Shown piece after piece: positions 19,430 through 64,000 of a stretch of DNA of 64,000 bases. The translations under genes were made by a program, and so were the position numbers. The stretch covers positions 54,849,471 through 54,913,470 of the forward strand of contig OY755046.1 in NCBI GenBank assembly GCA_963576565.1, given 5' to 3'. The notes beneath the pieces are model-generated. The model was not told the origin of the DNA. It saw nothing but the letters and a program-made list of their open reading frames with translations, and did not search any database. Each line of letters opens with the position of its first letter. Position 1 is the stretch's first letter. This stretch comes from Aspidapion aeneum (Eukaryota; Arthropoda; Insecta; Coleoptera; Brentidae).

Positions 19430-19743
19430 TTATTCTCTAAATACCCTCCAACCATGTTTAACAAACCTTCCCAAAAACTCAACAAAACCTACAAAGCCCT
19501 TTTTATATAATAAATATGGGGATAAAATCAAAATTATTGGAACCGTCAGAACTTTTGATATAACTTTAACTAATGTTACAACAATTGTAACAGGTAATTT
19601 TATAACAAACCAAATTGCTCTTACTGGAAAAGTCAGGAGAGCCCAAATAGCTCTTACTGGAAATAAGATAAGCCCGGTAAGAGAGAAAGAACTTCTTTGT
19701 TCAACGACTTCTTCTTTATTTCCACTGAACAGGTTTAGAAGAG
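19430..19743 (-). CDS. Gene A exon 2: small secreted hydrophobic-repeat protein
   Basis: Exon 2 follows an acceptor with a T-rich tract (tttttattttag) ending at 19744. Entry phase 1 fits the phase-1 donor of the exon at 27510-27630. It encodes about 104 residues to the stop at 19430: ALLNLFSGNKEEVVEQRSS, then 11-residue steps FPVRAIWALLT, FPVRAIWFVIK and LPVTIVVTLVK, then a hydrophobic stretch, SPYLLYKKGFVGF and a final HGWRVFRE. The first two steps are also near-identical at DNA level, 33 nt apart. The joined protein is 144 aa. Family and function are not recognised. The tail motif is shared with 38421-38707 and 56024-56354. The 7.8-kb intron contains Penelope, LINE and MITE relics. Confidence 0.75.
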
Positions 19744-20420
19744 CTAAAATAAAAATTATGAGAGATAATGCAAATACTTTTTTAAAAATTTTTGTACGAG
19801 CAGAAAATAAGTAGCAAATTATAATAAATATTTTATATGAATTAAGAGAAAAATATTTGGAATGACTTCCATCTAAAATTTGGTACCTTTTTCTAATACA
19901 TGGATATTTCACCAAAAGGTGGCATTAAAGAGTTACTCTTTCCTATAATAAATGTATAAAATTATTTAAATATTAATCGTTACACAACCTACGAATGGTT
20001 ACCCGGAAGTCTGCCAAAACTGTCGATGTTTAATTCACATATTTGCGGCTCTAGAAATACTTTTACGCCTTGTGGAGCGCAAAATAATAATTGTATGCCC
20101 CCTTTTGGAAAATATAGTATATCAAAAAAAAATATTGTTCGTACACAAAAGTTTTTTTACCCTGCGAACTTAAACCTAAATAATTTTTTTGACTGGGCGA
20201 CAAAGAAATATGCCCCCTTATTCAAACTTAGTAAGTATGGAGGCACATTGGAAGACGATTTTCTAGTAGTATTAAAGTTATATGGAATAAACAGATAACA
20301 GGTCCCCATATAAACCTGTGATTATTATTTTTATAGCGGGAAGTGTGGAAGACGCAAGCGGGGAACCTTTAAAATTCGTAATACATTTATTATCTATTAG
20401 TAGCGAAAGATAATGTGAAC
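19744..20420. other. 3' end of gene A intron, no other gene recognised
   Basis: The open stretch on the minus strand continues upstream of the acceptor to 19915, but the paralogue comparison places the exon start at 19743. A plus-strand frame at 20026-20298 (90 codons) has no recognisable motif. Confidence 0.5.
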
Positions 20421-20424
20421 TGAA

Positions 20425-20680
20425 CAGGCGCTCTTAAAAGCGCTGGTAAAACACCGATGGAATGAGGCAGGCTAAGCTCCTTTTCTAGGACGTTAGCGCC
20501 TCCAGAACGAGGACCTTTTGCACACTCGGGAGAAAAGATGAGATGAGACTGGCGACAGGGCTCTTGACAGGACACTGTCGTCTTAATAAACACCTTAGCA
20601 TTCTGGGAATCGTTGAAGACTCGGAGTGTCGTGGCTGTATGGACGACGAAGAATACCGTTATGATTTTTAGACAATAAAG
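20425..20680 (+). pseudogene. LINE C-terminal Cys-rich fragment
   Basis: One frame reads EMRLATGLLTGHCRLNKHL followed by VEDSECRGCMDDEEYR, the conserved post-RNase H Cys-rich region of R1/I/Loa-type LINEs and closely similar to the tail of 15200-15929. The upstream part (near 20425) shows LKALVKHRWNEAG in another frame. It is short and frameshifted, hence dead. The minus-strand frame over it is a shadow. Confidence 0.7.
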
Positions 20681-21215
20681 CATATTTTGACTTTGACTTT
20701 GGCTAGTGGCGAAACATTACTGTATTCAACGATACACACGTATGGATTCTACAGCAGATGTAATAATTTTTGAAGATGAAGAGACACGGCAGGTCTTAAG
20801 GCTAGGAACTAAAGACACCGCTCGCTCTGATTTCCTTTTCGAGACGTAATATTGACATTTTTATTACCACTAAAGACGTATCGCTTGAGAAGTTCAAAAA
20901 CCGACGTGTTATCTCCAGCCGTGTAGAAGTTATGGCACAAAAGTTGTGACAATTATTATTGTATTTTCCAACAATCCAACCCCAAGTTCGTTTCTTTGTG
21001 ATTTCAAATAGTCGTCTGGATTCCTGCTTATCTGGATTCGGATCTACCAAATTCCTGCAGCTTCATCAAAATCTCGAGGTACGATTTTTTAAAGTAGCTT
21101 GTTAACTTCTGAATTAAATTGTCCTTTTATGTCTTAACAAATTATGTCGACTTCTATACACTGGCTACATCAGCGCCACATGCCAGTGGTGAAGTCGCTT
21201 GATGAAACCTGATTT

Positions 21216-22291
21216 AGAAATAAAATTTCGGACTTTCGGTACATGGATGACACATTTATTATATGGCCGGAAAATGAAGACGAACTACAGAATTTTCTAC
21301 ACCATTTAATCGGTATTCCACCAACAATCAAGTACACCATGGAAATTAAAAAGATTCGGCCTTACCTTTTTTGGATGTTCTTGTCAAACGATCAGACAGA
21401 AACATTCAAACCACTGTATATAGGAAACCTACACACACGGGACAGTACTTAAATTTTAAGTCTAATCAGAATGCTAAAAAAACAAGGAGTTATAAGAAGT
21501 TTGTATTAAAGAGCCGTAAATATTTGTAGTAATAATGAAGAATTAACCGCAGAAATTAACAACATTAAAAAAGACCTACAACAGAATGGTTATTCCGAGA
21601 AATTAATAAACTCAAGGATATTAAAATAAAACCAAACTAAATGTACCAAATTCTTAAAATAATAATCCGTTAGGTGTTATTGACATTCCATATGTTCAAG
21701 GGATTTCAGAAAACATAAGACGAATAGGTAAACACTATAATATAAAAACAGTATTTTCTTCGGGAAATACGATAAGAAGTTTTGTAACTAAAACAAAACC
21801 AGACAATACCTCAAATAATAAGGAATGTATTTACCAAATCCCGTGTGAGTGTGGTAAATCATATGTAGGTGAAACGAAACGCCCTCTTCAGGTTAGAGTA
21901 AATGAACATCTAAAAAGTACCCAATTAGGGGATATTGAAAAATCCGGTTTAGCAGATTATGCATGGTCAAATGATCACAGGATTCAGTGGTCAGAAGCTA
22001 AAGTTTTACATAAGGAGTCGCATTGGCGAAAACGAAAGTTTATCGTACTGCTTTTATAATGCAGAATAAAGAAGTTTTCAGTCAACCAAGCACGGACATA
22101 CCAAACATATGGAAACCACTCCTTAAGGGAAACAGGCGTCTTAGGATTAAAAAAAGAAGGCTCTCACCTGACTGCACACCAAGTAGTATAAGTAGTAGCC
22201 TAAAGACTAGATTGTTTAGTTTACACTTGATAACGGTTAGAGATACTTACTAACCGAAATAAAGACAATGGAAGTCCGAAATTTTATTTCT
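21216..22291 (+). mobile_element. Penelope-like element relic with GIY-YIG endonuclease
   Basis: The interior begins RYMDDTFIIWPENEDEL, the catalytic YxDD box of Penelope-like reverse transcriptases, then [15 protein letters not shown] and an out-of-frame Lys-rich segment. Farther on, CIYQIPCECGKSYVGETKRP and VNEHLKS is a GIY-YIG-type endonuclease core, near 21825-21925. Stops and frame changes separate the parts and the first reverse-transcriptase motifs are absent, so it is 5' truncated. The block is bracketed by inverted copies of agaaataaaatttcggactt at 21216-21235 and 22272-22291, in keeping with the odd terminal structures of this class. Confidence 0.85.
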
Positions 22292-22299
22292 ACACAATC

Positions 22300-23930
22300 A
22301 TTGTCTACGAGTTTCAAACAAAGAAACCTGACTTGTTCAATATAGATGGCCACAGTGTTTTAATTCATGTTGATAAATCGTGTGTTTGCATTTCTGGCAA
22401 CTAGGTGGATACACGGGTCATCATGCGTTTATATGGGGTTCTATTATCTGTCTATTGTAGATCAAAAATTAATATATATTAGTTTTTATTAAATTAGCTT
22501 TAAAGCCCCTTTAGGACCCCCAAAAATTTTTCCTTGAAAACTAAGCTTCGAAAGGAAAACTGTATAGGATACCTTATTGTAGACAATAAATTTTTCTTAA
22601 TAACCCTGTATAATTTGACGGAGTCATAGTAATTACAAAACCTTCAGCGGCGTCCGTTAATTGAAGTAATTTATAAATTAATATTTATTTATTCGATTTT
22701 TTAAAAAGCAACCTTCATAGGAAAATGTTAGGTAAACATTTTATAATAGACAACCAAATTTTTTTAAACGTTGTCTGATTATTTTTATAATTAGAGCTTT
22801 AGGAGCGTCGAAAAAAAACCATTTTTGGCTAATAGTTTTATCTAATTTTGTTAGAATTTAATCTTAATATAAAAAAAAATATAGGAAATAATCTTTGTTC
22901 TAGATAGAAAATTTTCCTTTTTAACGATGAATAAGTCGATTGAGTTCCAACTTAAAATAAACCTTTTAGCGACGTCGTTATAAAAAAAGCATGTTTTTTA
23001 CATATTTTACCCGATTTTTCTAAAAACTCTTTATCAAAAAATGTGTTCCACACTTTATCGTAGACAATAAATTTCTTTTAATATGTTAAAATGCTGTATC
23101 ACAGGGTGAAAGTTATTACATATTATACAAATAATTTTTAAAAATCATCAAAAAATTTTATCCAACTTTCTTAAAAACTAAGCTTCTTATGACAAAATAT
23201 ATTTTTCGCCTTGCGTTGAATAATGAAATTTCCTTTCAAAAAGTGTATCACACAATTTGTTTAAAATATTCTTAAAACCCAATGTCTGTAGGATAGGATA
23301 ACAACATTTTTCAATTTCAATTTCAATATGTAACAGAAATTGATTATTTTGGTTAGGTTTAGAAATTTATTTAAATATAATATGTTACATAAATTCCACA
23401 TTATAAAACAGCGGTTAAAAGAAAATTTAATTTTCTAGAATAAAAATATTGCCATTTTTTTTTATATGTTATATATATGTATGTTTAAATTTTAAAAAAC
23501 TTTTAAAAAAACTGTTTCTTTTTCTAAATAATCTCAATTTACGGACGCCACTAAAGAATTCTCCTTTTTTGATCAATACCTTTGTTGGAAATAGAATTTT
23601 GTTTTGCCCAAAAAAAGAGTTGTTTTGAATTTTTGCTAAAAAGTTATATTCCGATAAAATTTAATAAAACCTAAAAAAATCTTTTTTGGGGGCTTAGAAG
23701 GGGATGTTGCTTACTCCCTCTCAACATTTTGAGGGGAAAACCATGAGATTTGGATTCAGTGAGAACAAAGTCCATGAAAATGACAGTTTGCCAAAAACTT
23801 ATATAAAATGTTTCTAAACCCAACCCTCCTTTTCAGATTTTTTGCCTTGAAGATTAGTGTGCAGTGACAATCGACCCTAAAGGAAAAACCCTGTTGCGCT
23901 CATCACTTTTTATTATAAAAATAACTATAT
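22300..23930. repeat. AT-rich intron DNA with diverged internal repeats
   Basis: Three or more diverged blocks share actaagctt..., gtagacaataaattt and ctgtat-acacaggg-like words (near 22545-22615, 23020-23110 and 23170-23270). No coding potential. Confidence 0.4.
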
Positions 23931-23934
23931 CGTA

Positions 23935-24008
23935 CCTCCTCTTTTTTGGCGGCTAACGGTCTCCAATGCATAGGGATCTACTACAAAATAGTATATTAGA
24001 ATTATAAC
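23935..24008. repeat. Dispersed repeat, copy 1
   Basis: It shares ggcggctaacg-tctc-aatg and acaaaatagtatattaga with 42415-42485 and 57418-57480. Here the repeat is interrupted by the MITE at 24021-24417. Confidence 0.65.
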
Positions 24009-24020
24009 ATAGGGACTAGA

Positions 24021-24417
24021 GACCCTGTATGTATCACATATTTTAACAATAGAGAGACGCGACAAACCCATCACAGTCACTAAAATTACCATTTTTTGGT
24101 TATGTTATTTTCTTGCCAAGTTCATTGGCGTTTCACTAAAATAATTTAAATTGTAAGCGGTGAGTAACATCAATCAGCATGCAACATAATAAACAAACAT
24201 GTTTGTCCGCACCCTCTGTACAGGTTTTGTTAAAAATCGTTTATTTTTATTTTCCGACGCTTATGAATTAACAATGACAGAAGGTTTGTTTCTATCTAAA
24301 AACCGAGTATCGAGGATCGATATTTTCATCCTTTGATTTTGATTTTAATAAATTTGACTTTGAAGAGTTTGTCGCGTCTCTAATTCTTTAAAATATGTTC
24401 TACATACAGGGTCGCTT
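24021..24417. mobile_element. MITE with ~47-bp inverted ends and 12-bp flanking direct repeat
   Basis: Left arm 24021-24067 (gaccctgtatgta...agagacgcgacaaac) is the imperfect complement of 24367-24413; the inner 15 bp are exact. The word atagggactaga occurs immediately outside both ends (24009-24020 and 24418-24429). Only one similar word is present in the related uninterrupted repeat near 57468-57480. No coding capacity. Confidence 0.75.
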
Positions 24418-24429
24418 ATAGGGACTAGA

Positions 24430-25879: not shown

Positions 25880-26287
25880 CCTAGCTAGCCTATTAGCACA
25901 CTTCAAGTGAAGCAATGATACATCAGTCCTGAAAACAGCTTTTTGTAAATATCTCAGAAAATAAAGCTTCTACGAAGTCTTTGGTTATGACACAAATTAT
26001 TGAGCGAAATACATTCTACTTTATTCTGAAAACCGCATAGTGATATCATGCTCCTTTAAAAAGTTAGCATTATTTTAATTGTTAAGAAACTGTCATTAGC
26101 ATGAAAGGTGGCGAACACTATTTTACCTAAATATTTTATGAAAATCGGTTTAGCGGTTTAGGAGCTATCATGTTACGGACAGACACACACACACAGACAT
26201 ACATTATAAGTCAAAATACACCTAAATAACACATTTTTCATCAAAACTAATACCTTTTTAGCCATTGCTGTGTGAGCTAGGAAGGTA
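25880..26287. mobile_element. Dispersed element ending in cttcctagct
   Basis: The ends cttcctagct (25883) and agctaggaag (26276) are inverted. Near the right end the text tgaaaatcggtttagcggtt is followed by an (ac)n-rich tract and acagacat, as in the larger elements at 48071-48823 and 60376-61145. Non-coding. Confidence 0.55.
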
Positions 26288-26547
26288 AAAATAATTGTTC
26301 TATCCTGTCAAACCTTCTCACTTCTGACAGTTTTTTTTTTTGTTTTGTTTACCAAAAAGCACATGGGAACTGCTGCGACATTACATAGCGGTTTTTCGCG
26401 GCACTTCACACGTCACTAAAATGTATTTTAATGTCTTGCCAGATCTGACATTGCTTACTTAGTTTCATAGATACGACGGGTGGGCCTTATTAAAGGGTTT
26501 TTTGTTTTTAACAAGTAATTGAGAAAAGGAGTGCCAGAAATATAGAC

Positions 26548-27415: not shown

Positions 27416-27509
27416 ATAGTAGTAGTACGTATACCCCTCAACCACCTTAGATGTTTTTGTGCTGTCTGGCTATTGAATAAATTTTTTTACAAACGAAATT
27501 ATAACTTAC

Positions 27510-27699: not shown

Positions 27700-29455
27700 A
27701 ACTAATTTAAGTTATTATCAATTGTTTAGTAAGTTATTATTTTTTTATTGATTTAATTAACGAAATTTTGGACGGTATTGGACCAAAAACAATATAGCAA
27801 TAATTTTAATGTTCCAAGTTTTTATGATAACATAAAAAAATACTTTGCCAATTAATGGGGCCCTAAGCCACCCACTTCTTTTATTAAATGTGTACCTAAG
27901 GACCATTAAATGAAGTTTGTCAATTCCACACTTAAAATTGCGATTGATACACATGGGTAAGCAATTTTTTAATTAAGAACATGTATTTTGATCATTCTTC
28001 TTTCGTGGTTCTTAAATTCCAGAATTAATTATTCGAGCAAAATAAAAATTTTGCTCCAGGGGTTCTGCAGTACACCCTGTTCCAGACCTCTCCATAATTT
28101 TGGAGCTATGAGTATACAGTCTTTATTCTGTATGCACCATTGAGTTGTATAACGCCCTAAAAGGGCGTTAGAGACGGAAAGACAAGGCATTTTTTATTGA
28201 CCCTATCCAATTTGGTTCCTATGGTCGGGTATTTCTTTTACAATAAAAACAGAAATAGACATTATTGAACATGTGAAACGGACAAAGATAGGGTGATTTT
28301 GCATGCTAATAATACCCTAGATAATATAAGGGTACTTTTATCTCTTTCACACTGACGGCATAAGTGCGACAGAAAAGCAGCTGGCTACCTTTAATCCACC
28401 TGCCGTATTTTGAGTGATTCTACCTGTTAGTCCGTGTATACAGGGAAAACTGATAGACAATGTTGTCTAAGTACGGAAATGATTTTTTTTGAATTTTGTG
28501 CGGGAATATTACAAAAAGAAATCTTAAAACGTTTAAAAACAAGTTTAGAAGTAACTATTTGAGTTTAAACATGGTCCAAAATTGTTTTTTGTGGAAAAGA
28601 AGAAAAAAAATCCATAAAAAAACAACATTTCATGGGTAAGTCGTCTTGACAGATAGTTTTTCCTAAAACACGAGAAAGTTCAGTAGCGTCACGATAGATA
28701 GTTTTTTCTGCGACCGTGCGATTTTACCCTCACACATTTTGATTCAGAAAGTGTCACTTCCCCGCACTTTTTTTTGCATTGCATGAAAATTAACAAAAAG
28801 TATTTGATTTTCTTAAAAATGATTTCTTTTTAAATTCTTACATACCGATTTTTATCCAGTTGTTTTTGTTTTTTCGAACCAAACTTTTGACATGTCACGG
28901 TCGAGTTTCATACATCTTGATGAATTGTTACACACACTGATCTATGTTTTTATAAATTTCGATAAATTTAATGTTTTTTGCGGACTTTACAGTAATTTTA
29001 AGTTAAATTTTGGTCTTTCATCGCGAAAGTATATATTTATTATTATATGACCACCGCGACCGGTCTACAGGCCGGTATCATATGTTTATGTCCTTCTAAT
29101 GTCATTTGACTATCATGCTGTCTTACTTAATAAGGTCACTTAGTTTAATTAATAATTTTGTCCTACATAATATAAAAGAAGAATAGAAACCAACAAAAAA
29201 TTTGTGACACTTCGATTACCCATTTTCTTTGATTGCGATGGATTAGGGTGACCAGATTACGGTTTATTAGGGTGCCCAGAGTGCGCAAAAAAAGATTTTG
29301 AAAAATTTCCCTAAAAAAATTGAAGACCAAACACTCACTCGCCACTCAATGTTTATGGTCGCATACACTAATCCTAACTCGATTTCCGACGATTATTGAC
29401 AATGGTTACCCCCTGGACATAAACCTAACAACTTTTACTATATTTATTAACAATA
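27700..29455. other. Gene A 5' flank; no other gene recognised
   Basis: The flank to about 27890 is alignable with the gene B flank (44590-44770), both ending near a gccaatt-atgggg-ccctaagc motif. An isolated unit of the repeat array found at 31990-34340 occurs at about 28010-28150 (gcaaaataaaaattttgctcc, then ctgcagtacacc). The rest is AT-rich and unassigned. Confidence 0.5.
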
Positions 29456-31989: not shown

Positions 31990-34340
31990 ATGCCGGGTCT
32001 ACCCGTAGGGTATAGAAGTCAATGGTATGCACACACTTTCATTTCTTCCAGACTTTTCTTTTGGGTACAGAGACCCGATACCCTTCAAGAAAGCTTTGGT
32101 TTAATTTGTAAAGGTGTCTTGTCCCTTTACCTAAAATTTTTTAAAATTTAATTCATGAGTAAATTATTCGGAGCAAAATATAGTTTTGCTCCAGTGATTC
32201 TACATTACTCACCTGTTCCAGATATGTCCCCCATGTTAATACCTTCAGTATATCAGACGACTTCATCCTGAGTGCAGGGTACACACTTCCATTTCTTCGA
32301 GACTCCCCTTTTGGGTACCAAGACCAGATACCCTTAAAGAAAGCTTGGGTTTCATTTGTAAAAGTATCTTGTCTGCAACATAAAAATTTCGCTTCAGTGG
32401 TTCAGTAGCACACACCTGCTTCAAACCTCTTTCCTATTTTAAAACCGTCAGTACATCAGACAGCTTCATTCTTGGTGCAAGATACACACTTCTATTTCTT
32501 TCAGACTTTCCTTTTTGTATAGAGACCAGATACCTTTAAAGAAGTTCTTGGTATAATTTGCAGAGGTATTTTGTCGCTGTTTATGTACTGGCTAAAAAAT
32601 AATAATAAATTATAGGAAGCAAAACAAAATTTTGTTTAAGTGTTCTGCAGTACACACCTGCTCCAGACCTCCCGACTATTTTGAAACCGTCAGTATTCCA
32701 GAATACTTTATTCGGGGTGTAAGGTACACACTTGTATTTCTTTCAGACTTTCCTTTTCGGTAAAGAGACCGGATACCCTTCGGTTTAATTCATAAAGGTA
32801 CTTTATCCCGGTTCCTGGCTAAAAAGTATTTTTATTAGGGTATCCGGTAACCTTAAAGAAAGCTTCTGTTTAATTTATGAAGCGATTTTATCCCTGTGCC
32901 TGGCTAAAATCTATTTTGCTTAAATTCGAGAATAAATTATCACGGAATAAATAAAGTTTTGCAAGTAGTACACCCTGCTCCAGACCCCTCCAGAATTTTG
33001 GAGCCGTCAGTATAACAAACGCCTTTATTCTGTGTGCAAGGTACATAATTTCATTTCTTGCAGACTTCTTAAAGGCATTTTATCTATGTACCTAGCTGAA
33101 AAGTATTGTTATTAAATTTCAGAATAAACAATAAAGGGCAAAATAAAATTTCGCTGCAGTAGTTCTAAATTACGCACCTGCTCCAGACCTCATTTTGAAA
33201 CTATCAGTATACCAGACGCCTTCATTCTGGGTGCAAAGTACACACTTTCTTTCAGACTTCCTTTCTCGGTACAGAGACTGGATACCCTTAAAGGAAACTT
33301 CGGTTAAGTATTTTGTAAAGTTAACTTGTCCCTGTTCATGTACTGACTAAAAAGTAGAATAGTTTTTATTGAACAAATTATCCAGAGCAAACTAAAATTT
33401 TGCTCCAGTGGTTCTGCAGTACACACTTGCTCCAGACCTCTCCCATACTTTGAAACCGTCAGCATACCAGACGATTTCATTCTGGGTGCAAGGTACACAT
33501 TACCATTTCTTCTAGATTCCCTTTTGAGTAAAGAGACTGGATACCCATAAGGAAGCTTCGGTTGCCCCCCCTTTTGTCCAGAGAACTCCAAATATAAGAG
33601 ACACATTCTGGTGTATTATACAACGGAACAAAAAAAATATTATTATATACATGTTCAAAAAATCCCTTCCTTCCCTTTTTAAAAGACTGGGAGCGCCCTA
33701 GGTTATATTGTCCCTGTTCATGTACTGGCTAAAAAGTATTTTTGTTAAATTTCAAAATAATCTGGTGTCAGTATAATACTAGACACCTTTATCCTGGGTG
33801 CAAGGTACACACTTTCATTCCTTCCAGACTGCCCTTTTGGGTATAGAAACCGGATACTCTTAAAGAAAGCTTTAGTTTGATTCATAAATGTATCTTGTCC
33901 TTGTACAGTACACCCCTGCTCCAGACTTCTCCTTTTTTTGAAATCGTCAGTATACCAGACCACTTTATTCTGGATGTCTAATCATGTACTGTCTTAAAGT
34001 ATTTTTACTAAATTCCAGAATAAATTAAACGGGAAAAATCAAAATTTTACTCCAGTGCAGTGGTTCTGCAGAACTCACCTACTCCAGACCTCTCCTCTAT
34101 TTAGAAACCGTCACTATAGCAGACCACTTCATTCTGGGTGCAGGTACAGACTGGATACCTTTAAAAAAACTTTGGTTTAATTTATAAAGGTATCTCGTTC
34201 TTGTTCATGTAGTGGCTAAAAATTATTTTTATTAACTTCCAGGGAGAAGTTATCTAGGGCAACATAAAATTTCTGCAGTACACACCTGCTCCAGACTTCT
34301 TTTCTTTTTAAAACCGTCAGTATACCAGATGACTTTAATC
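31990..34340. repeat. Diverged tandem array, ~10 units of 165-325 bp
   Basis: Units repeat the order gagcaaaataaaattttgct, ctgcagtacacacctgctcc, ccgtcagtataccaga, caaggtacacacttccattt, gagaccggatacccttaaag and catgtactggctaaaaag. The ccgtcagtat landmark falls near 32248, 32445, 32685, 33010, 33205, 33455, 33765, 33945, 34110 and 34315. Unit tails continue after 34950, so the LINE at 34393-34940 was inserted into the array. Reading frames here are artefacts. Confidence 0.85.
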
Positions 34341-34392
34341 TGGGGGCAAGGTACGGTATACTTCCATTTCTTTCAAACTTCCTTTTTGGATG

Positions 34393-34940
34393 CAGATACC
34401 CTTATACCTGTTTTTCGACAAGTTTTTGATAAGAAACTAACCTGGAAAAACCAGATATCGAATGCACTTTCAAAAGCAAGGGGAGCCCACAGTAGACTAA
34501 ACTTCTTGTTAAATACCAGCAACACTCTACACCGAAGAGTAAAATTACAAATATGGAGGCAAGTCTTTCGCCTCATACTAACATATGCAGCCCCATGCTG
34601 GAACAGAGTGTGCAAAATGCAAATGGGAAGGCTACAAAGCTTCCAAAACAGAGTCGTAAGACAAATAGCTGGAGCCCTTTGGTTTGTGCATAACCGACAA
34701 ATAAATTAATTAAGAGAGAACTCAACATTGAGGATGTACCAGAAACAATCCAGGAGCAGAAGGATCGTTTTATGAGACGATTCGAGGGGCATCAATATCC
34801 CGGGGTACAGGATGCATTCCTGTACCGGCCCGGAAACAGGCCGGGGCCCTACAAGAGGCCCCTGCAGTACATACTAGAAATGAAAGAGGTACATACCTAT
34901 CATGCACAAGCATTATATCTTAGTAGTGGTAGTAGACCGT
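34393..34940 (+). pseudogene. 3' part of a Jockey-type LINE
   Basis: The frame from about 34410 reads VFDKKLTWKNQISNALSKAR, then LLNTSNTLHRRVKLQIWRQV, LILTYAAPCWN and LQSFQNRVVRQIAGALWFV, the C-terminal part of Jockey-group reverse transcriptases. After a stop and frame change HQYPGVQDAFLYRPGN and the 3' untranslated part follow, ending with a gtagtggtagtag tail. The N-terminus, endonuclease and most of the RT are missing. It is inserted in the tandem array. Confidence 0.85.
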
Positions 34941-38420: not shown

Positions 38421-38707
38421 TTAAAGACTTGAAAAGAATGGTTTCCATCCCGACAGGAAGAATTTCTTTGCATACTTAAGAAAACCCCATATTCCCTTTG
38501 TTATTAATAAATATGGAATGAAAAGCAATACTAGTGGCGTCAGTAGAAAACAATGAATTAATAGTTTGACAATATTATAAATAAATTTAACAGGTAGTGA
38601 TGCAAGCCAATAAATACCTTTTACTGGAATAGACAGGACTTTTAGTGGAAGAGTCACGGCTTTACCTAGTAGGCTGGCCACATTCAAGGGTTCTGTTGGG
38701 GCTACGC
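38421..38707 (-). CDS. Gene B exon 2: small secreted hydrophobic-repeat protein
   Basis: The acceptor ctttatttttag ends at 38708, and phase 1 fits the donor of 44423-44555. The exon reads GVAPTEPLNVASLLGKAVT, then LPLKVLS (7 residues), IPVKGIYWLAS and LPVKFIYNIVK (11 each), LLIHCFLLTPLVLLFI, PYLLITKGIWGF and SGWKPFF, with the stop at 38421. The joined product is 139 aa. The repeat grammar (Pro at position 2, one Lys or Arg at position 4) and the PYL...KGxxGF...GW tail match gene A exon 2 (19430-19743) and the broken copy at 56024. A possible polyadenylation signal lies near 38195. Function is not recognised. Confidence 0.75.
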
Positions 38708-38951: not shown

Positions 38952-39557
38952 CTACACCTCTTCATTGGTCTGAAATTGCTTCCCGCCCAGTGAATCTTTG
39001 AGTGGGCCAAATATATGAAAATCGCAAGGTGACAAATCTGGACTGTGTGGAAGGTATTCCAGCACAGTCAAGTGCATTTCATTGATTTTGGCCTGTGTTA
39101 AAGCTGCCGTATCAGGTCTAGCGTTGTCATGCAGGAGCAACACGTCTTGGATGGGGTGTGCTCTTCTCTTTTGGCGATAATCAAGCTTTACCTGGTCGAG
39201 TAAGTTGCAGTAGTAAGCCGCGTTTATTGTTATTCGCTCGTGCAAAAAATCGACCAACAAAACTCCTCTCCAGTCCCAGAAAACGGTCGCTAAAACTTCG
39301 CCTGCAGAAATGATGGTACGCGGACGCCGTGGGTGACTCACGTTGTCGACACGCTCAAGGCCGTCGTTCATTTCTTTGCACCAAGTTTTTACAGGTACCC
39401 ACGAAAGCGTCTTATTTCCGAACTGTGCTCGCAATCTGCATTGAATTTCAGCAGGTTTCACGTTTTCGCGTGTAAGAAATTTAATGATTATTCTTTGCGC
39501 AACACTACTGTCTACTTTCTTCTCGCTCATTGCGATTGCTCCTGGCCAAATAAGCAT
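38952..39557 (-). pseudogene. Mariner transposase with internal deletion
   Basis: The frame is open for 201 codons. The N-terminal helix-turn-helix region is present (VAQRIIIKFLTRENVKPAEI, then SHPRRPRT). It then jumps to AGEVLATVFWDWRGVLLVDF and continues through LLLHDNARPD to HSPDLSPCDFHIFGPLK. The two last catalytic Asp residues are exactly 34 residues apart, as in D34D mariners. The block between them and the DNA-binding part, including the first catalytic Asp (the TGDE-type motif), is missing, so it cannot be active. It resembles the mariner group behind SETMAR/GVQW-type proteins. Clear terminal inverted repeats were not found. It sits in the gene B intron. Confidence 0.88.
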
Positions 39558-42326: not shown

Positions 42327-42414
42327 TATTTACTCAATGCTTTAGGTCAGAATTGGCCTAAAAGGATATACTTCTGTTGTGCTTATTAATTTCTAGTATA
42401 AAATTAATTGTATC

Positions 42415-42485
42415 ATACCTCTTTTTTTGCGGCTAATTATCTCCAATGCATTGCGACCTAAAACAAAATAGTATATTAGAAAAAT
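42415..42485. repeat. Dispersed repeat, copy 2
   Basis: It shares gcggctaa, tctccaatgcat and acaaaatagtatattaga with 23935-24008 and 57418-57480. A 19-nt C run follows at 42512-42530. Confidence 0.6.
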
Positions 42486-42780
42486 AAGCAGTAACGTGTT
42501 AAATTTTTGGACCCCCCCCCCCCCCCCCCCGCGAACTTTTTTTTGAGGCCCCATATGTCACTGTATTATATTTTATATTTTCCAAAAATAACCCATAATA
42601 GTAAATATTTATACACAATATTATTATCTAATAGTAAAAAAACACAGCGAATTTTGGCAATCTTCTTCTTCTCCTCCTCCTTTATTTCAACTAGTTTTCT
42701 TTTTTGAGCCCCACTCAGATATTTGCACGAACTACTCATTTTAATATTTTAAATATCACCTCAAAACTCAAACGTAACAA

Positions 42781-55947: not shown

Positions 55948-56023
55948 TATTTAATATTCCTATGTTTATCGACCAAAATGTAGACCTCCCTAGTCTAGAA
56001 ACTTAGCACTTTAAATAATGGTC

Positions 56024-56354
56024 TTAAATCCATGACAGGAGGCCTCTCCATCCCGATACAGCAAAATTTGCGAAATACCTAATAAAACCTATTATTCCCT
56101 TTTTATATATTAAATATGGGGACAAAATCAAAATAATTGGTGTCAGCAAAAGCTTAGAGATACAATGAATCAATATTTCGCTAATCTAAAAACGATTCTA
56201 ACAGGCAGCGTTATAATATACCAAACAGCTCTTATTGGAAAAAATATCACTTTTAGTGGAAAAAATATCACTTTTAGCGGAAAAATCAGGACATTAAATA
56301 TCAGGCGGATAATAGCCAAAGGATCTGATGTGGCTACGGGACTGTTGAACAGAC
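56024..56354 (-). pseudogene. Gene C exon 2 with one frameshift
   Basis: The acceptor aatttttag ends at 56355. The exon reads GLFNSPVATSDPLAIIRLIF, then FPLKVIF twice (7 residues each), FPIRAVWYIIT, LPVRIVFRLAK and a stop. A one-base shift at about 56168-56178 restores the family tail: LLLTPIILILSPYL, YKKGIIGF and SGWRGLL, ending with TAA at 56024. The two FPLKVIF copies are a 21-bp DNA tandem duplication. Either the gene died recently or the base is an assembly error, as the sequence after the shift is otherwise well preserved. It pairs with the partial exon at 63956-64000; intron about 7.6 kb. Confidence 0.72.
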
Positions 56355-56900
56355 CTAAAAATTAAGTTAAGTTTATGGATGTCATAAAAAAATGGCAACA
56401 CTGAAATTTAAAAAAAATACTTTAGTGTGGTGTCACTAAAAAAACAATTTTTGTCTAGGGTCTACCACACAACAAAAACTCAAACAAGCCGTTGAAAAAA
56501 TAGGTCTTTTATTGGTTTGGTGTGGGTACGGGACTGTTGAACAAATTTAGACCTAAAAATTAAGTTATGGTTATGGAAACACTGAAATTCTTAAAAAATA
56601 TTTTAGTGTGGTGCCACTGAATCTTTAAAAACAATTTTTGTCTAGGGTCCAAAGACACAAAAAAAAACTCAAACAAGCAGTTGAAAAAATAGGTCTAGTG
56701 AAAAAGTGTGAGGTTGTGATATGGGTACAGGACTGTTGAACAAATTTAGACCTAATAAAAATTAAGTAAAGGTCACGGATGTCCTAAAAAATGGCGACAC
56801 TGAAATTTTAAAAAATATTTTAGTGTGGTGTCACTGGATCTTTAAAAACAATTTTTGTCTAGGGTTTAAACAAAAAAACACTACAAGAACTCAAACAAGC
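56335..56900 (-). repeat. Triplicated intron end / exon 2 start of gene C (~199 bp units)
   Basis: Three tandem units repeat gggactgttgaac, the acceptor complement (acctaaaaattaag), caacactgaaattt, tagtgtggtgtcact and aatttttgtctagggt. Acceptor AG positions are 56355-56356, 56553-56554 and 56752-56753. The outer two precede a decayed exon start reading GLNLFNSPVPTPNQ and a stop in the middle unit. Only the innermost leads into the exon body. Confidence 0.8.
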
Positions 56901-57417
56901 AGTATTTAGTTGTTCCAAAATTCCTGAATAATAGAATTTGAAGCAAGCTGAGGTCAGGTAATCCTTCAGCTACCATCTAGCTTATTTTATCGGTCTTCTT
57001 TCTCCATTGCTTTTAAATATTGAAATGTCACGGGTTAATCCTGTTCACAGTCCAAATTTTTTGATTTTAATGTGATTTTTTCATCAGAAAATCAAAACAA
57101 AATAGTATTTACTATTACTAACCCTGCAAAAAATATCATATATATCATATATATATGTGAAAAATCCTCAGATGTCTCAAAAAGAAAATGGATTGAGATA
57201 TGAGAATTGTTTTTGAAAAGACAGGTGGATGGACGTCCGCCATTGCGGGACAATTTCTGTTGGCAACACTGAATTTCTTTTAAACGATGGTAGTGTGTCA
57301 AAACAATATTTTTTCTGGGCTATATTATACAAAATAAACATAAAAACGCTCAAAAACGTACCCGAAAGAAATAGGTCAGCCAAAAAAATAGCAATGAAAA
57401 CCCAATTGAAAATAGTT

Positions 57418-57480
57418 TGGCGGCTAACGATCTCGAATGGCTTGCGATCTACGACAAAATAGTCTATTAGAAATATAGGG
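57418..57480. repeat. Dispersed repeat, copy 3 (uninterrupted)
   Basis: It shares ggcggctaacgatctc and acaaaatagtctattaga with 23935 and 42415, and continues directly into ataggggctagaaag without the MITE found at 24021. Confidence 0.6.
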
Positions 57481-57574
57481 GCTAGAAAGTTACTTTTTGT
57501 ATTTCTTAACGTTCTTTGCTGCTTTCTTCCTTTTCTTTTTCATTTTCGTTTTCGTTCTATTTTATTCTATCTGT

Positions 57575-59690
57575 TTAGCCTTCTTCAATCCAGCTTTGGA
57601 CATAGGCCTCCCCCAATATCTTCCACTTTTTTCTTTCTGTCGCCGTGTTCATTGATATGGTTCCCGCATGTTTCTTCAAATCGTCCGCTTTTCTCATTTC
57701 GGGTCTACTCCTACTTCTTTTATTTTCCCAAGGTCTCCAGTTTACAATCCATTTACTCCATCGATCTTCTTTCTGTCTGATATTATGACCGGCAAATTTC
57801 CATTTTAATTTTGCTACTTCTCCTCTGACATCCTTTACTTTTGTTTTATTTCTTATCCCTTCATTCCTTTTTCTATCTGTCAGCTTTACATGTAACATTT
57901 GTCTTTCCATTGATCTTTGGGCTTTTGTTGCCTTATCCATGTTTGATTTTGTAAGTGTCCAGGTCTGGGATTCATAGGTAAGTACAGGAAGGATACATTG
58001 GTTATACACTTTCGTTTTGAGGTACTGAGGATGGTCAACTGTACTGCTTGTTCCTATTTTGTTAATATTTTCGTAAAAAGCTAAATTTCATTGTAGAGTG
58101 TTATAGGTGGATAGTTTTTTTGGTCTGCTCTATCGCCTTTCTTGTGTAGAATAATGGTTATGGATTCTTTCCAGTTGTTTGGGACTATTTTTCTTTTAGT
58201 ATTTTATTCAGGAGAATATGGAGGGTATTAACCACAGCTTTACCACTGTAATTGAGCATTTCTGCCGTTACTCCATCTTTTACAGGTGATTTGTTATTTT
58301 TAATTTTCTTTTATACTCTCTTTATTTCCGCTTTGCTTATTTCAGGTTGTAGCTCGGAGTTTATGTTGTTTATTTTTGTTTGGAGTTTCTGCGTTTCTCG
58401 TGATGGTTCCCTTTTGGTTTGGTATAATTCTGTATAGAATAGTTGTGTGATATTTAATGATATCCTCTTTAACATTAGTTTCTATGTCGTTAATATCCTT
58501 TATTTTAATTATTTCATATCTATCTAGAGTCGGCCTTAGACCTTTCATATTTCTGTTATTTTCAATAACTCTCTTAACTTTAATTTCTTGGCTCTTACTT
58601 TTATTTTCTTTTATCATTTTTCTTATAGTTTTATTTATTTCGGTGTATTCTATAGATGTTTTGTTTTTCCTTCTCTCTCGAGGGTCAGCCTTTTTTCCAT
58701 CAGTCTCTTTATTTCTTCTGATATACAATTTTCCCTCTTTATATCTTTTTGTTCCATGTCTTTTCCTACTTTGGTCATAGCTCTTGTCAGCATATTATTT
58801 ATTTCATCTATATTTTTATTTTCGCATCCTAAGTTTTGGATTAGCTGTTCCTTTAGCCTTTCTTTGTTGTTCATTGTTATTATTAATTAATTCAAAATTG
58901 CTATCAATGCAGATTTTTGTTCTGGCCATCCTGTGATCACTACCTGTTGAAAAGCGATTTAGGACTCAGTCAGTATGTAATCAATTTCGTTTTTCGATAT
59001 TCCATTAGGGCTAAGCCGTGTCCACTTTCGTTGCGGTTTCTTTCTATAGAACGAGTTCATTGAATAAAGCTGTTTTTCCTCTAGATAATTCCTTAAGGTT
59101 GTGCCCCTTTCATTTCTTTCTCCATATCCAAATTCTCCTATTTTAGTCTCTTCGATGTTAATCCTCTTACCTAATTTGGCATTGAAATCTCCCATTACTA
59201 GTGTCAGATGGGTTTTGTTTTCGTCAATGGCTGTTGAGATGTCATCGTAGAATGCTTCGATATGCTCGTGATCATAGGTAGAAGTGGGGGCATATACCTG
59301 AATTACTTTAGGTGATGTTCTTTTCATTTTGAGTGTAAGATAGGCAACGTGATCTGAGATTCCTGTAATAGTATCGATGTGCTTGCTTATCCTACTCCGA
59401 AGTTGCTATTATCTTCATTACCTTTATGATAAAGTAGATTACCGAAGTTCAGTTTTATCCGATTTTCTGATTTCTGACAGGCCTACAATGTCCCATTTTA
59501 TCCTTGTCAGTGCTACTGTGATTTTTTCTTTTTTATTTTCCCGAAAAAGAAGGGTTGCCACCTAAGCTATATTCGCCGTACCGAGTTGCTTCCTCCCTGC
59601 CTTTCATACCGGTGTGGTCTTCTCCCGTATCCGTGGGAGAGGGACCCTAGACAGGTGCTTACCCTCCGGGTCAGAGGGTACCTATTAAAT
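57575..59690 (-). mobile_element. RTE-type LINE with 5' end, core RT deleted
   Basis: Reading 59690 down: a GC-richer leader (gacccggagggtaagcacct, accacaccggtatgaaaggc). Then an AP endonuclease: RIKWDIVGLSEIRKSDKTEL, KVIQVYAPTSTYDHEHIEAF, LVMGDFNAKLG, GYGERNERGTTLRNYLEE and ISKNEIDYIL (58959-59327). Then the Lys-rich linker (YTEINKTIRKMIKENKSK), a short piece HKKGDRADQKNY, and the C-terminal region VLTYESQTWTLTKSNMDKAT and LKWKFAGHNIRQKEDRWSKW (57575-58009). Most of the reverse-transcriptase core with the catalytic Asp pair is absent (around 58010-58100). Domain order and the C-terminal signature fit the RTE clade. It lies in the gene C intron on the same strand. Confidence 0.88.
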
Positions 59691-59699
59691 ACACATAAT

Positions 59700-60375
59700 T
59701 TATTCGGTAGGTAGAACTAGAAAGACAAAAGTTAAAACTGTAGCGCGCTGTCTATAACAAAAAATTAAAATGTTTTTACACTTTGGATATTTGTTGGGGG
59801 CCCATCCAGCTAAGTAAAATTTAAAGATCTGGTAACTAATGAATTCATAGAATTTAATGTGTAGTGGCCATTGCTTTTATTGACGATAAACTCCAGGACC
59901 GCAGAAATGGAACGATTTATTACCATAACCGTAAAGATATCCGAGTGAATTTTCGAATGAACAGAAATGACCTAATATTATCGGTCGAAGTATTTACTGG
60001 ACACTGCCCGGTCAAACAATCAAGGACTAGTGCAATCTTTGACTAGTGCACACTGCAGATACTCAGGGAGTCCTAATTGTAGGGAAGCAAAATGCTATTG
60101 TTGTCAATTTTTGGTAGATTTTATATCGACCCAAGAAAAGTAAAAAATGAAAAATTGAACGTTCGATTTGTACCCTTTCACTTTTTTCAAAACATTTTTA
60201 AACAGAAACAAAACAAGATATTTAGTGCTACAGTTTTCATTGGGGCCCCTCTCAATGTACAACTTTTAAAAATATTTATCGATTAAAAAAAAATATGTCA
60301 AAGTCAAAACAAGTTTACCAAAGTAGTGGACCCTGTCAAAAAAATCTTTTTGAGGCGGATCTAATCTAAAACACT
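59700..60375. other. No gene recognised
   Basis: AT-rich gene C intron sequence. Two short plus-strand frames (59864-60046 and 60092-60286) show no motif. Confidence 0.5.
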
Positions 60376-61145
60376 TTTTAGCTCACACATATACTATACT
60401 ATAGTAGTGTGAGCTATGGTGATCCTAATTTTTTCGAGAAAAAAAAAGTTGCTCCGCTTTCAAAAAATTTTATATATCTTTGCGTTTCAGATGATTTTGA
60501 AACTTTTTTGTTGCGCCGTCTGTCTGTCTGTCTGTCGGTCTGTCTGTATGTCTATCTGTCTGTCTGTCTGTCTGTCTGTATGTCTGTAACGACCAACGCG
60601 CATAACTCAAAAACCGCTTGGCCGATTTTAATGAAATTTGGTACCTACGCTGGGTCTTGGGTCGAGATGGTCCCATTTAAAAATGAACAAAATCCACCGA
60701 ACAGAAACCAAATAAAAGGGTGGGGGTAGATTTCAAAAATTAGAGTTTATGTGAAAATATGGCGTGTGTGATATCAAACGAAAGGTAATTGAGTCTGCAG
60801 TTAAACAAAATACATTTTAATTTATAAAAAAAAAAGGGTGGGGGTATATTTTAAAAATTAAAGTTTAAGTGAAAATATGGCGTGTGTGATATCAAACGAA
60901 AGGTAATTGAGTCCGGAGTTTAACAAAATACATTTTAGTTTTTTGTTTTTTTTAAGGGTGGGGGTAGATTTCAAAAATTTGAGTTTAAGTCAAAACATGG
61001 CTTGTGTGGTATCAAACAAAAGGTAATTTAGTCTGGAGTTAAATAAAATATATTTCAGTTTTTAGTTATATTAGCTCACACGTACACTATAACTATAGTA
61101 CCTAGTGTGAGCTTAGGGGCCCATATATTGGCAGAGTATTTTACT
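60376..61145. mobile_element. Inverted second copy of the 48071-48823 element
   Basis: It starts tagctcacacatatactata and has a (tgtc)n tract at 60519-60588, then ccgcttggccgattttaatg. Three ~106-bp units follow (gggtgggggta, ggcgtgtgtgatatcaaacg), ending with gtgtgagcttaggggccc. Orientation is opposite to copy 1 and similarity is high. Confidence 0.8.
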
Positions 61146-62564
61146 ACACTTTTTAAAATATGAAAAAATATTTCCGGAAAAATTTGTAGCAGAATCACGA
61201 ATAACAAATAAAGTTTTAAAAAGTGGGTATGTATAAGTAGTCCAAAGTATTAGAATTTTACGAATAACGCAACAGCTTGGTATTTGTGATTCTGCTACAG
61301 ATTTTTCCTACAAGATTTTTTCTTATTTTTAAAAGCGCAGACCCAAAAGGAAGATAAAACTCCCAATAGAAATTTAAAAACAGACAGAGTTAAAAAATTC
61401 AATTTTTAAAAGAATAATATTTTTAATTTAAAATAATTTTTCTTGTTAGACAGGATTGCCTAATTAAAACCGTAATAAAAAATAATTTGTCTCTTTTTGA
61501 TTTTGAGTTATTTTGAAAAAAGTGAGCAGGTGCAAACTAGAAAGTTAAGGGCAATAAAACGCAGCTTAGATTGAACCAATGATTTTTCCAAGTTTGCGGA
61601 AAATTTTTAAATATTTTGGATTATATTTATGTTTCTTAAATTTTTTACTTCATTAAAGTCGATGTACAAACCTGGCCAAAAATTGACGAAAATTGCGGCT
61701 AACTGACCGACCAGTATACGATTTCAATATTTAAAAAAAACTGAAAAATAGCCAAATTTAAACGCTTTTTGCCACCACTTAACAAGTATATAGTGAAAAA
61801 TAAATTACGCTGCTTGAAAAGTTGTCTATAGTAGAACAAAGGTTTTAGAGGGACCCAAAATTAAGCACAAAATAAGAAATCCTCAGCTGTTTATCTCCAA
61901 AAGTGGAATTTTTGGTTAAAAAACCATTATTTTGAACCAATGATTTTTCCAAATTTGCGGTAAATTTTTAAATATTTTGGATTATATTTATATTTTTTTA
62001 GGGGAGTAAATTTCGTATTTAGTTCTCTATCAGAACCGATAAAAACTCTTTTAAGTTTTGATCAAATAAAGATTTTTTTGTTGTGTATAAGCAGTCCAAA
62101 ATCTTGAATTTTGCGAAAAATGCGACAGCTTGGTCTTTGTGATTATGCTATACATTTTCCCCGCAAAATTTTTTCAAATTTTAAAAGGTGAGGTATATCC
62201 TGACAAAAGAAAGAAAAAAAGTACGTCAGATAAAATTTGCCTCAGGAACTTTTTGACATGGTTCAAAAATTCAAGTTTTTACATTATTTTTCTTTATATA
62301 TATAAAAAAAATATTTTTAAAAGTTGCGTTACATGGTCTTATACAGACTAGAGTCCCTGTATGTGACAGATATTGTCACATAATATCTTAGCTGTTTTTG
62401 ATTTTAGGATAAACGCAGCTAAGAGTACAGTAAAAGCCAAAAATTGTTTTGCTGCCCGACCATAAGTGCATTTGTTTCCTACAGGACCTCATCGAGGACC
62501 GTAAGAAGCTACAGGAACACACGGAACATGTTTGAAAGTGCAAACATTGTTGTTGGAATGCACA
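61146..62564. other. Repeats in gene C intron, no gene
   Basis: Small inverted repeat ttgtagcagaatcac (61180) / gtgattctgctaca (61287). A direct repeat, ttgaaccaatgatttttcca with about 70 bp around it, lies at 61571 and 61933. A further related block is near 62080-62160. No coding potential. Confidence 0.5.
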
Positions 62565-62853
62565 CCTGTAGCACTATTCTTGATTTTTGAGGAAATTTTA
62601 TTCATCTCTCTCGAATACACGTTCTGATTGGTTCGATGGCATTATTATTACAATTAATACATCATTTTCAATAAAAATTGATCTATTGGTCTTTCGTGAG
62701 AAAAAACAAAACAACCGAATTCCATAAAAGTTTATGATTTTAAAGGGAATGGGAGTGGTGTATAATGCATAGACCAATCAGATGAATTTATTTGAGGAAG
62801 AGTGCTCGTTTTCCTTAGATTTGTGGGAAATTTAAAAATATTGCTACAGGTTA
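62565..62853. mobile_element. Small MITE with acctgtagca ends
   Basis: The ends acctgtagcactatt and aatattgctacaggt are inverted. Inner matches are ctgattggt / accaatcag and aattttattcatct-like words. Non-coding. Confidence 0.6.
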
Positions 62854-63629
62854 CCCTGGACATGAGAGCAATGAGGTTGCGCACCAGCTCGAAAAGGATG
62901 CAGCCCTGGTCAGTCTAATAGGGCATGAGCCAACCCTTGATATCGACGTCCGTAGTGTAGTGGTATCCAACCCTTGGTGTCGCACACAATGTAGATAAAA
63001 CTGCTATATTAGGATGAAGAGTAAATGTCTTCCAGTTAACTAACTTCAAGGATTCGAAGTAGATATCCATTGGAATTCTGTAGTAAAGATGAATAATCCA
63101 CTCCAAAGAAGGAATCAGCCGGAATAGGTATTTCTTATACCTAACAAGACGTACATGGGCCTACTTTTTTAATGTCATCCCTCTGTTGTACATTTGTAGT
63201 AATACAAAGAAGCAGTGCGTTGTTTGAAAACCACAACACAAACATAGAAAATATGTCTGTTGGACAGTCAAAGGTTGCCCAATGGACGGCCCTTGATGTT
63301 CAGAAACAAACTTCTATTAGACGTAGAGAAGTGTTTAGTATGCTTCGTACATTGGACGTATGGACCAATGGGTATTTGATTAACGGCTTTATTTTTATTT
63401 GTCATAAACAAAGGGATAACTTAAAGGTAAATCAAAAAGAATGGAAAAATAGGTGAACCCTATTTTTCATTCTACGAGTGAACGACAGCGAACCAAGGAA
63501 ACCAAGTCCATGGCGGGACGAAAACGTTCACCGGTCTATAAGGTAGAAAGACTTATCGTCACAGTTCAACCAGACCATGCTATCACCGTCTCCACGGTAT
63601 CGGTTCCGGAACCGAAAACAATGAGTTAC
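62854..63629. other. No recognised gene; two plus-strand frames of unclear nature
   Basis: Frames 63172-63456 and 63453-63662 are open, and the second (AGRKRSPVYKVERLIVTVQP) has protein-like composition. It runs straight into the hairpin at 63630, so it may be transposon DNA. The word ggtaaatcaaaaagaatgg (63426) also forms the hairpin centre. Confidence 0.35.
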
Positions 63630-63938
63630 GCAAGTATAAAAGGCAATTTCAAAGGGGTATAGTCAACCACGGACACCGGTGTTTCGGAAAAAGGCATTTC
63701 CATCCCCAGCGTGGCTTGCCTGACACAAAGTAGAACAAACTGTCTACAAGATACAAGGTAAATCAAAAAGAATGGAAAAATATAATATTAATTCATTCTT
63801 TTTGATTTACCTTGTATCTTGTAGACAGTTTGTTCTACTTTGTGTCAGGCAAGCCACGCTGAGGATGGAAATGTCTTTTTCCGAAACACCGGTGTCCGTG
63901 GTTGACTATACCCCTATGAAGTTGCCTTTTATACTTGC
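63630..63938. repeat. 145-bp-arm hairpin next to the gene C donor
   Basis: Left arm 63630-63774 and right arm 63794-63938 are near-perfect complements with a 19-nt spacer and only a handful of mismatches (for example ccccagcg against cgctgagg). The right arm ends 17 nt from the donor at 63955. The mismatches argue against a simple assembly mirror artefact. Confidence 0.9.
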
Positions 63939-63955
63939 TTAAAGAGATAACTTAC

Positions 63956-64000
63956 CGATCGAATTAACATCATTTTGTTTAACTAATAAATTTCGGAGTT
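63956..64000 (-). CDS. Gene C exon 1 (partial, cut by window end)
   Basis: The minus strand reads LRNLLVKQNDVNSIG and then a phase-1 donor G|GTAAGT at 63955. This aligns with gene B (LQNLIDIQKAIPSIG) and gene A (LQNTFSINSA). Signal peptide and start codon lie beyond the window. Its phase matches the acceptor at 56355. Confidence 0.65.

Follow-up and report, generated by a model that had tools for sequence, protein, structure and literature searches.

Six paralogous genes, five intact and one broken, form a single-locus tandem array in the beetle Aspidapion aeneum. The genes themselves are well supported, and the roles proposed below for their products are putative. The window, a 64-kb stretch of DNA, holds genes A and B and nearly all of gene C; 100 kb on each side of it on the same contig was also read, giving 264 kb. 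All six copies (A to F) lie on the same strand. The features located in the window and at its right edge are as follows.

27819..27837, minus strand: promoter palindrome of gene A, TTTTATGTTATCATAAAAA
27510..27630, minus strand: gene A exon 1, signal peptide and start of the propeptide, with a phase-1 donor GTAAGT
23936..23980, minus strand: gene A exon 2, end of the propeptide with an RQKR convertase-type site, phase 1-1
19430..19743, minus strand: gene A exon 3, coding for the cationic, hydrophobic mature protein (Pro-started repeats) up to its stop codon
44713..44731, minus strand: promoter palindrome of gene B, TTTTATGTTTTCATAAAAA
44423..44555, minus strand: gene B exon 1, signal peptide and start of the propeptide
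42419..42457, minus strand: gene B exon 2, RKKR site, phase 1-1
38421..38707, minus strand: gene B exon 3, mature protein and stop codon
63956..64088, minus strand: gene C exon 1, its last 45 bases (63956..64000) in the window and the rest in the flank
57416..57448, minus strand: remnant of gene C exon 2, with the branch-point/acceptor block and VSRQ retained and the K-R residues and adjoining A/B-like donor gone
56024..56354, minus strand: gene C exon 3, with an in-frame stop and a frame change; boundaries counted on the sequence

Extent and copies of the array

The outer exons of A and B proposed by the first-pass annotation proved exact to the base. All are in phase 1; each exon 1 is followed by a GTAAGT donor, and the acceptors are AG. 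Between A and B, exon 1 is 70% identical (E ~1e-14) and the terminal exon matches at E ~1e-12; none of 2000 shuffles reached the A/B score for either exon, and by this sequence comparison both are homologous far beyond chance. The motif MxxxKLxF...SDVAxGQ is present in exon 1 of all six copies, which bears out the claim of a common signal-peptide exon, as judged from sequence. Additionally, a palindrome of the form TTTTATR...RTAAAAA stands in six of six promoters and nowhere else in the 264 kb. Its paired TTTATG-like half-sites may be of the kind recognized by Caudal/Abd-B-type homeobox factors.

Gene C is not an intact paralogue, because its terminal exon carries an in-frame stop and a frame change; it is probably a pseudogene. 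The earlier description of three same-strand paralogues in the window thus stands as to a local paralogous family and fails as to three working copies. To the right of the window are three further genes, D, E and F, each with three exons on the same strand as A to C. The array thus continues past the right window edge, whereas the extension past the left edge that had also been suggested is not supported by the 100 kb read there, which contained no copy. A recently duplicated segment, ~10 kb or longer and 98–99% identical between its copies, contains D and E, and this repeat backs the proposed origin by local, tandem duplication.

Several weak matches to exon 3 were rejected as copies. Two in the left flank are chance-like, one at -54054 in window coordinates (E 0.006, interrupted by stops) and one at -92296 (E 0.002); those in the right flank lie at 107382 (E 0.096, one stop) and 98677 (E 0.11). 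A profile scan of the 264 kb gave nothing below E 0.64 outside the array. Furthermore, when the 1.29-Gb genome was searched with a signal exon and with two mature exons, the array alone came back and no further copy.

The middle exon and its convertase-type site

While the first-pass annotation described two exons separated by a single phase-1 intron, A and B instead have two phase-1 introns with a small phase 1-1 exon between them. The two-exon model is in frame, yet it is ruled out by this conserved exon inside the introns, an exon that D, E and F beyond the window also have. The exon was first spotted by intron conservation in the window and then checked on flanking sequence: the exon-2 peptides of A and B match the introns of D, E and F in the right order and strand (E 0.008–0.097 in 264 kb), and at E<=0.2 nothing else in the 264 kb was matched apart from A and B themselves. 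Because these flank E-values are modest, and chance-like exon-3 matches (E 0.002 and 0.006) occur in the left flank, the argument for the exon rests on position, strand and phase. Phase 1 is kept in all five intact gene models, and in gene A a second acceptor 3 bases downstream would also keep the frame. The splice block TTCTAATATACTATTTTGTnnTAG, with up to 3 substitutions allowed, occurs three times in the window, once each in A, B and C. A transposon fragment is ruled out as the source of the intron piece, which is found once per gene, colinear, on the same strand, with splice signals and phase kept.

In the intact genes, exon 2 is 39–45 bases long and ends in R-x-K-R: RQKR in A, RKKR in B and F, and RSKR in D and E. 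The site is at the same place in all five, with variable flanking residues. The pattern ALxx[LVI]SRxKRG, derived from these genes, has five occurrences in the six frames of the 264 kb, one per intact gene; bare SRxKR has 18. Since the middle exon ends in this convertase-type site, the products of A and B look like preproproteins composed of a signal peptide, a short propeptide and a cationic hydrophobic mature protein. All five intact genes combine a predicted signal peptide with a conserved R-x-K/R-R site downstream of it.

On the sequences compared, the shared marks of the family are the prepro part, with its exon-1 and exon-2 motifs, and the promoter palindrome. Pro-started repeats of ~11 residues and a PYL...KGxxGF...GW tail had earlier been taken as the hallmark; they hold for A, B and C and not for D, E and F, and the repeats were dropped as a hallmark once the latter sequences were compared. 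In the nine pairs other than D/E, the prepro part is more conserved (pN 0.21–0.26 vs 0.38–0.56 for the mature part), a pattern described for the myticalins, a defence-peptide family (PMC5577615). The dN/dS ratio is 0.40–0.91 for the mature part and exceeds 1 for the prepro part in four of nine pairs. Exon 3 of D and E differs by six nonsynonymous and no synonymous changes, an excess that weak constraint would also give.

Mature proteins and searches for relatives

The predicted mature proteins have 95–124 residues, a pI of 9.2–10.5, a GRAVY of 0.50–1.01 and at most one cysteine. Mean hydropathy over 19-residue windows peaks at 2.26 for A and 2.48 for B. Prolines 84, 95 and 106 of gene A are spaced by 11 residues, and such a run is not retained in D, E or F. 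Of 500 shuffles, 7 (A), 2 (B), 9 (D), 21 (E) and 52 (F, the weakest case) reached the mean helical moment. The maximum moment is unremarkable in B, where 66 of 500 shuffles are at least as high, and in F, where 133 are. AlphaFold2 predicts one long helix each for A and B, in weak models (pLDDT 69.3 and 67.8, pTM 0.35 and 0.36, two sequences each). Membrane interaction, earlier called probable, is still something we infer: the cationic composition, the GRAVY range and the predicted helix are compatible with it.

The family was described as unrecognised, and no match in Pfam or the protein collection contradicts this. Protein-collection searches turned up sets of 94, 42 and 34 candidates, of which not one reached E<=10; the first two sets came from A or B models lacking the middle exon. 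No insect proteins were shown among the entries, so the result says little on other insects. Pfam-A was scanned with four of the five intact genes, A and B as two-exon models and E and F as three-exon models, F minus 3 residues. No family was found for A, E or F, and B gave only DUF412 at 15.3 bits, under the cut-off of 23.6. Among PDB sequences, B without its middle exon had 11 weak matches (best E 0.59), and the exon-3 peptide of E had none. Rfam gave no matches within the window, and of 41 stretches in viral contigs that fit a pattern, none was confirmed. Literature queries with exact sequence strings and with concepts turned up no account of such a family among the matches listed. Elsewhere in the A. 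aeneum genome, coleoptericin-like matches are present.

Possible functions and alternatives

The explanation we favour, tentatively and as somewhat short of probable, is that this one locus encodes an array of secreted proteins which a convertase releases and which act on membranes, most likely serving defence as an antimicrobial or other cytolytic secretion. Exon 1 would encode the signal peptide and the start of a ~30-residue propeptide, and the signal peptide would send the protein into the secretory pathway. A furin-like convertase would then cleave after R-x-K-R, freeing a mature, cationic, hydrophobic and helix-forming protein that may bind and insert into membranes, and the paralogues would diversify after duplication. 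Linear antimicrobial peptides are typically shorter and less hydrophobic than these proteins, which counts against an antimicrobial reading. The secreted proteins are possibly defence effectors. That they constitute a novel insect effector family is a conjecture we hold with reserve: cysteine-poor, convertase-activated proteins of 95–124 residues would enter membranes by several helices that are hydrophobic, cationic and kinked at prolines, in one lineage and from a single array, co-regulated through the palindrome, the mature exon diversifying and the prepro part conserved.

Known systems resemble the array in part. Ceratotoxins of Ceratitis fruit flies are secreted antibacterial peptides limited to one genus, with seven clustered genes in the medfly genome (PMC5034548). 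Like them, the array is a clustered multigene family (here six genes) with a signal peptide, as judged from sequence. Ceratotoxins form a Pro-punctuated, hydrophobic, cationic helix; their mature peptides are much shorter than here and their precursor is different. They come from Diptera, and the likeness is one of description. Beetle coleoptericins are secreted defence proteins with a convertase-type propeptide site; however, A, B, E and F have no match to Coleoptericin PF06286 at E<=1, and the composition here is hydrophobic. In mussels, myticalins and modiocalins are described with a conserved signal region, a dibasic convertase site, a hypervariable mature region, a phase-1 intron and pseudogenes among paralogues (PMC5577615). 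The array shares the conserved signal region, convertase-type site, variable mature part, phase-1 intron and a pseudogene. Unlike the array, with its N-terminal propeptide and hydrophobic mature part of 95–124 residues, these peptides are reported to have a C-terminal propeptide and a mature part of 23–42 residues lacking predictable secondary structure (PMC5577615).

An unlikely alternative is a reproductive or glandular secretion (seminal, accessory-gland, salivary or defensive-gland) whose proteins coat or enter membranes, be it in the mate's tract, on sperm or eggs, or in another organism, and are not immune effectors as such. A tandem array of divergent paralogues suits such genes, as may the palindrome in all six promoters with its putative homeobox half-sites. 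Ceratotoxins, again clustered insect peptides, are made in the accessory glands of females and occur on laid eggs as well (PMC5034548).

Rather improbable is a lipid-handling or structural role, in which Pro-punctuated amphipathic 11-residue helices would lie on lipid surfaces, as in apolipoproteins, surfactant, wax or cuticle, and would not kill. Exchangeable apolipoproteins carry Pro-punctuated amphipathic repeats of 11 or 22 residues, and the proline spacing in A and the predicted helicity of these hydrophobic proteins recall them. However, the array proteins are strongly hydrophobic and cationic, only some copies have the spacing (D, E and F do not), A, B, E and F have no apolipoprotein match in Pfam, and a convertase-removed propeptide is unnecessary for such a role. 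Small membrane-resident proteins are likewise improbable: the hydropathy peaks of A and B would suit segments that span the plasma membrane or membranes of the secretory pathway, whereas an incidental R-x-K-R sits poorly with its fixed place among varying neighbours in five of five intact copies. Transposon-derived or non-functional gene-like repeats are very improbable: the region is transposon-rich (three of eight other window ORFs match Pfam Transposase_1, RVT_1 and Exo_endo_phos_2) and copy C is broken, but order, phase and strand are kept by three exons, a promoter and five open frames, queries with exons 1 and 3 match this locus only in the genome, and A, B, E and F have no transposase, RT or other mobile-element match in Pfam, the kind of match that would have told against the first-pass annotation.

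If expressed, the array of putative convertase-released proteins would represent a new secreted insect protein family, unusually long and hydrophobic for cationic effectors. A tiny symmetric exon with a convertase site is easily missed, and a preproprotein may then be mistaken for a plain secreted protein. With old, recent and broken copies adjacent in ~90 kb, gene birth, diversification and death can be read at this locus.

Gene structure and the middle exon

The first-pass annotation had described three paralogues of two exons each, a signal-peptide exon joined to an exon of repeats by a phase-1 intron. In both intact in-window copies (genes A and B), the exon positions and phase-1 junctions stand, with donors, acceptors, and phases in agreement; the two-exon structure does not, as a middle exon lies within the introns.

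Features of genes A, B, and C (window coordinates)
27630-27510, minus: gene A exon 1, phase-1 GTAAGT donor at its end
23879-24007: gene A conserved intron block
19743-19430, minus: gene A terminal exon (exon 3), starting past an AG acceptor in matching phase
44555-44423, minus: gene B exon 1, phase-1 GTAAGT donor at its end
42361-42487: gene B conserved intron block
38707-38421, minus: gene B terminal exon (exon 3), starting past an AG acceptor in matching phase
64088-63956, minus: gene C exon 1, complete with flank sequence
57416-57477: gene C conserved intron block

By sequence comparison, the A and B exons are alike far above chance (tblastn E about 1e-14 for exon 1 and about 1e-12 for the terminal exon, scores reached by 0 of 2000 shuffles each). 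Their upstream regions (about 240 bases) are also alignable as DNA, with 72% identity over 336 columns that include most of exon 1. Within the introns, all three genes share one short, strongly conserved block, other matches being weak. On the gene strand of A and B, this block carries a phase 1-1 exon of 39-45 bases, preceded by an acceptor and a CTAAT element resembling a branch point and followed by a GT donor. The peptide gained ends in ALETVSRQKRG in A and ALEIISRKKRG in B, and supplies R-x-K-R, the furin-type recognition pattern. The exon could be overlooked because the A and B reading frames are open with or without it.

In shuffle tests of the exon-2 peptides, the observed scores were reached in 0 of 2000 shuffles for A/B and B/C and in 7 of 2000 for A/C. 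The A and B peptides, made independently of three further copies in the right flank (genes D, E, and F), also found exon 2 in each of these (tblastn, flanks, E 0.008-0.097). Since these E-values are modest and chance-like left-flank matches of exon-3 queries reached 0.002 and 0.006, it is the place, order, strand, and phase of the matches that test the middle exon. Taken alone, SRxKR is found 18 times in the six frames of the 264 kb comprising the window and 100 kb on each side; ALxx[LVI]SRxKRG occurs five times, once in each intact gene. The modelled gene structure is almost certainly correct.

Extent of the array and its surroundings

The array had been suggested as possibly passing both window edges. 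It does so on the right, where tblastn placed exons 1, 2, and 3 in order in each further gene; on the left, no copy was found within 100 kb.

Genes in the right flank (window coordinates)
81175-72460, minus: gene D
91834-83201, minus: gene E
108824-101237, minus: gene F

Profiles from all copies, whose in-family matches are by construction, detected no further copy in the 264 kb (best match outside the array, E 0.64). The window itself occupies 54,849,471-54,913,470 of contig C9. Searches of the whole genome (1.286 Gb, 149 contigs) scored the best candidates only, and very diverged copies could escape them. Gene B exon 1 matched all six genes (E<=10, 6 candidates scored), gene E exon 3 matched E, D, F, and A (E<=10, 4 scored), and gene A exon 3 matched A, B, and C (E<=0.001, 12 scored).

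Gene C was less well preserved than the annotation had implied. In a self-comparison, the window's final 60 bases matched the end of B exon 1. With this short tail, 21 of 2000 shuffles reached the B/C score, a weak result, and 635 of 2000 reached that of A/C, which lacks significance; the full exon settles the kinship (E 7e-9 against A, 4e-12 against B). Its exon 3 is broken by a shift of frame and an in-frame stop, and its exon 2 is without the K-R residues. As judged from sequence, C is most likely a pseudogene, leaving A and B as the intact paralogues in the window.

Repeats are found within and around the genes. The C intron holds a palindromic 317-base element (63626-63942, 95% self-complementary), probably a fold-back transposon, 13 bases past the end of exon 1, and tandem duplicates of about 190 bases with the exon-3 start (56320-56903) lie upstream of full C exon 3. 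A Mariner-type transposase frame (38952-39557; Transposase_1, E 7e-13) lies in the B intron, 245 bases upstream of exon 3. Elsewhere are a satellite of about 169-base units (3203 to about 11900, the far end inferred from copy count; 51 copies in register at >=60% identity to a reference copy), LINE-type fragments at 13009-13311 (RVT_1, E 1.6e-7) and 58959-59327 (Exo_endo_phos_2, E 4.5e-7), and a complex block (32031-34404) whose internal direct repeats are diverged and reach about 700 bases. In the right flank, a 1764-residue open frame (127279-132570, minus) resembles, by eye, a BEL/Pao retrotransposon polyprotein.

Promoters and divergence of the copies

Alignment of the six upstream regions revealed a palindrome, TTTTATRTYWTMRTAAAAA, in 6/6 copies, 176-239 bases before the ATG, the pattern being derived from those copies themselves. 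It was absent elsewhere on both strands of the 264 kb, and none of 10 first-order Markov sequences contained a match. The palindrome presumably resembles Caudal/Abd-B half-sites.

Genes D and E share a duplication of at least about 10.2 kb at 98-99% identity; the 6 changes between their exons 3 are all nonsynonymous, too few for any claim of selection. Among the other nine pairs, which are not independent and whose mature alignments are gappy, prepro dS (0.17-0.63) is below mature-part dS (0.77-2.62) in 9/9, and pN is 0.21-0.26 versus 0.38-0.56. This contrast is indicative and would fit 5ʹ-end gene conversion or extra constraint there. dN/dS is 0.40-0.91 for mature parts and 0.42-1.53 for prepro parts (>1 in 4/9).

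Encoded proteins and their relatives

The precursors are 159, 152, 180, 177, and 179 residues long in A, B, D, E, and F, respectively, with mature parts past R-x-K-R of 105, 95, 124, 124, and 124 residues (pI 9.2-10.5, GRAVY 0.50-1.01, 0-1 cysteines). The proline-started repeats and PYL...KGxxGF...GW tail described earlier are present in A-C but do not mark the whole family; a C-terminal Pro-x6-Pro block, defined by its proline positions, is found in 5/5 intact copies. AlphaFold2, given two sequences each for A and B, modelled exon 3, at low confidence, as one long helix (pLDDT 69.3 and pTM 0.35 for A; 67.8 and 0.36 for B), so that these regions are likely helical. The mean helical moment exceeds that of shuffled sequence in A, B, D, and E and is marginal in F (reached by 7, 2, 9, 21, and 52 of 500 shuffles, respectively; maximum moment, 2, 66, 23, 36, and 133).

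The family had been called unrecognised, and the searches agree. Pfam-A gave nothing above cut-off for A, B, E, and F; PDB sequences gave only weak matches to B (best E 0.59) and 0 to E exon 3; and no relative was found in viral contigs or a protein collection. As the collections searched are perhaps poor in insect proteins, other beetles may have members of the family among their unnamed predicted proteins. An exact-string search of full-text literature returned none.

Coleoptericins are, to our knowledge, restricted to beetles. In this genome, the coleoptericin family (PF06286) has three partial matches above the curated cut-off (model positions 94-143, E 7e-4 to 9e-4), with none in 14 control genomes, which makes a beetle the likely source of the sequence. 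One 73-residue coleoptericin-like frame is identical at two loci (contigs C2 and C8), where adjacent frames also match; the third match is on contig C1. Given this identity and the matching adjacent frames, a dispersed repeat may have spread this defence-gene domain.

The system is of a familiar type, in which divergent secreted preproproteins are encoded in a tandem array, and may be compared with ceratotoxins (PMC5034548) and myticalins (PMC5577615); here the mature part is unusual in its length and hydrophobicity. Most likely, signal peptidase would remove ~25 N-terminal residues and a furin-like convertase would cleave behind R-x-K-R, after which the freed cationic, hydrophobic, helical protein would partition into membranes. 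Secretion and processing are predicted with high confidence, and membrane insertion is the probable fate of the mature protein. The best single guess at a purpose, a tentative one, is defence.
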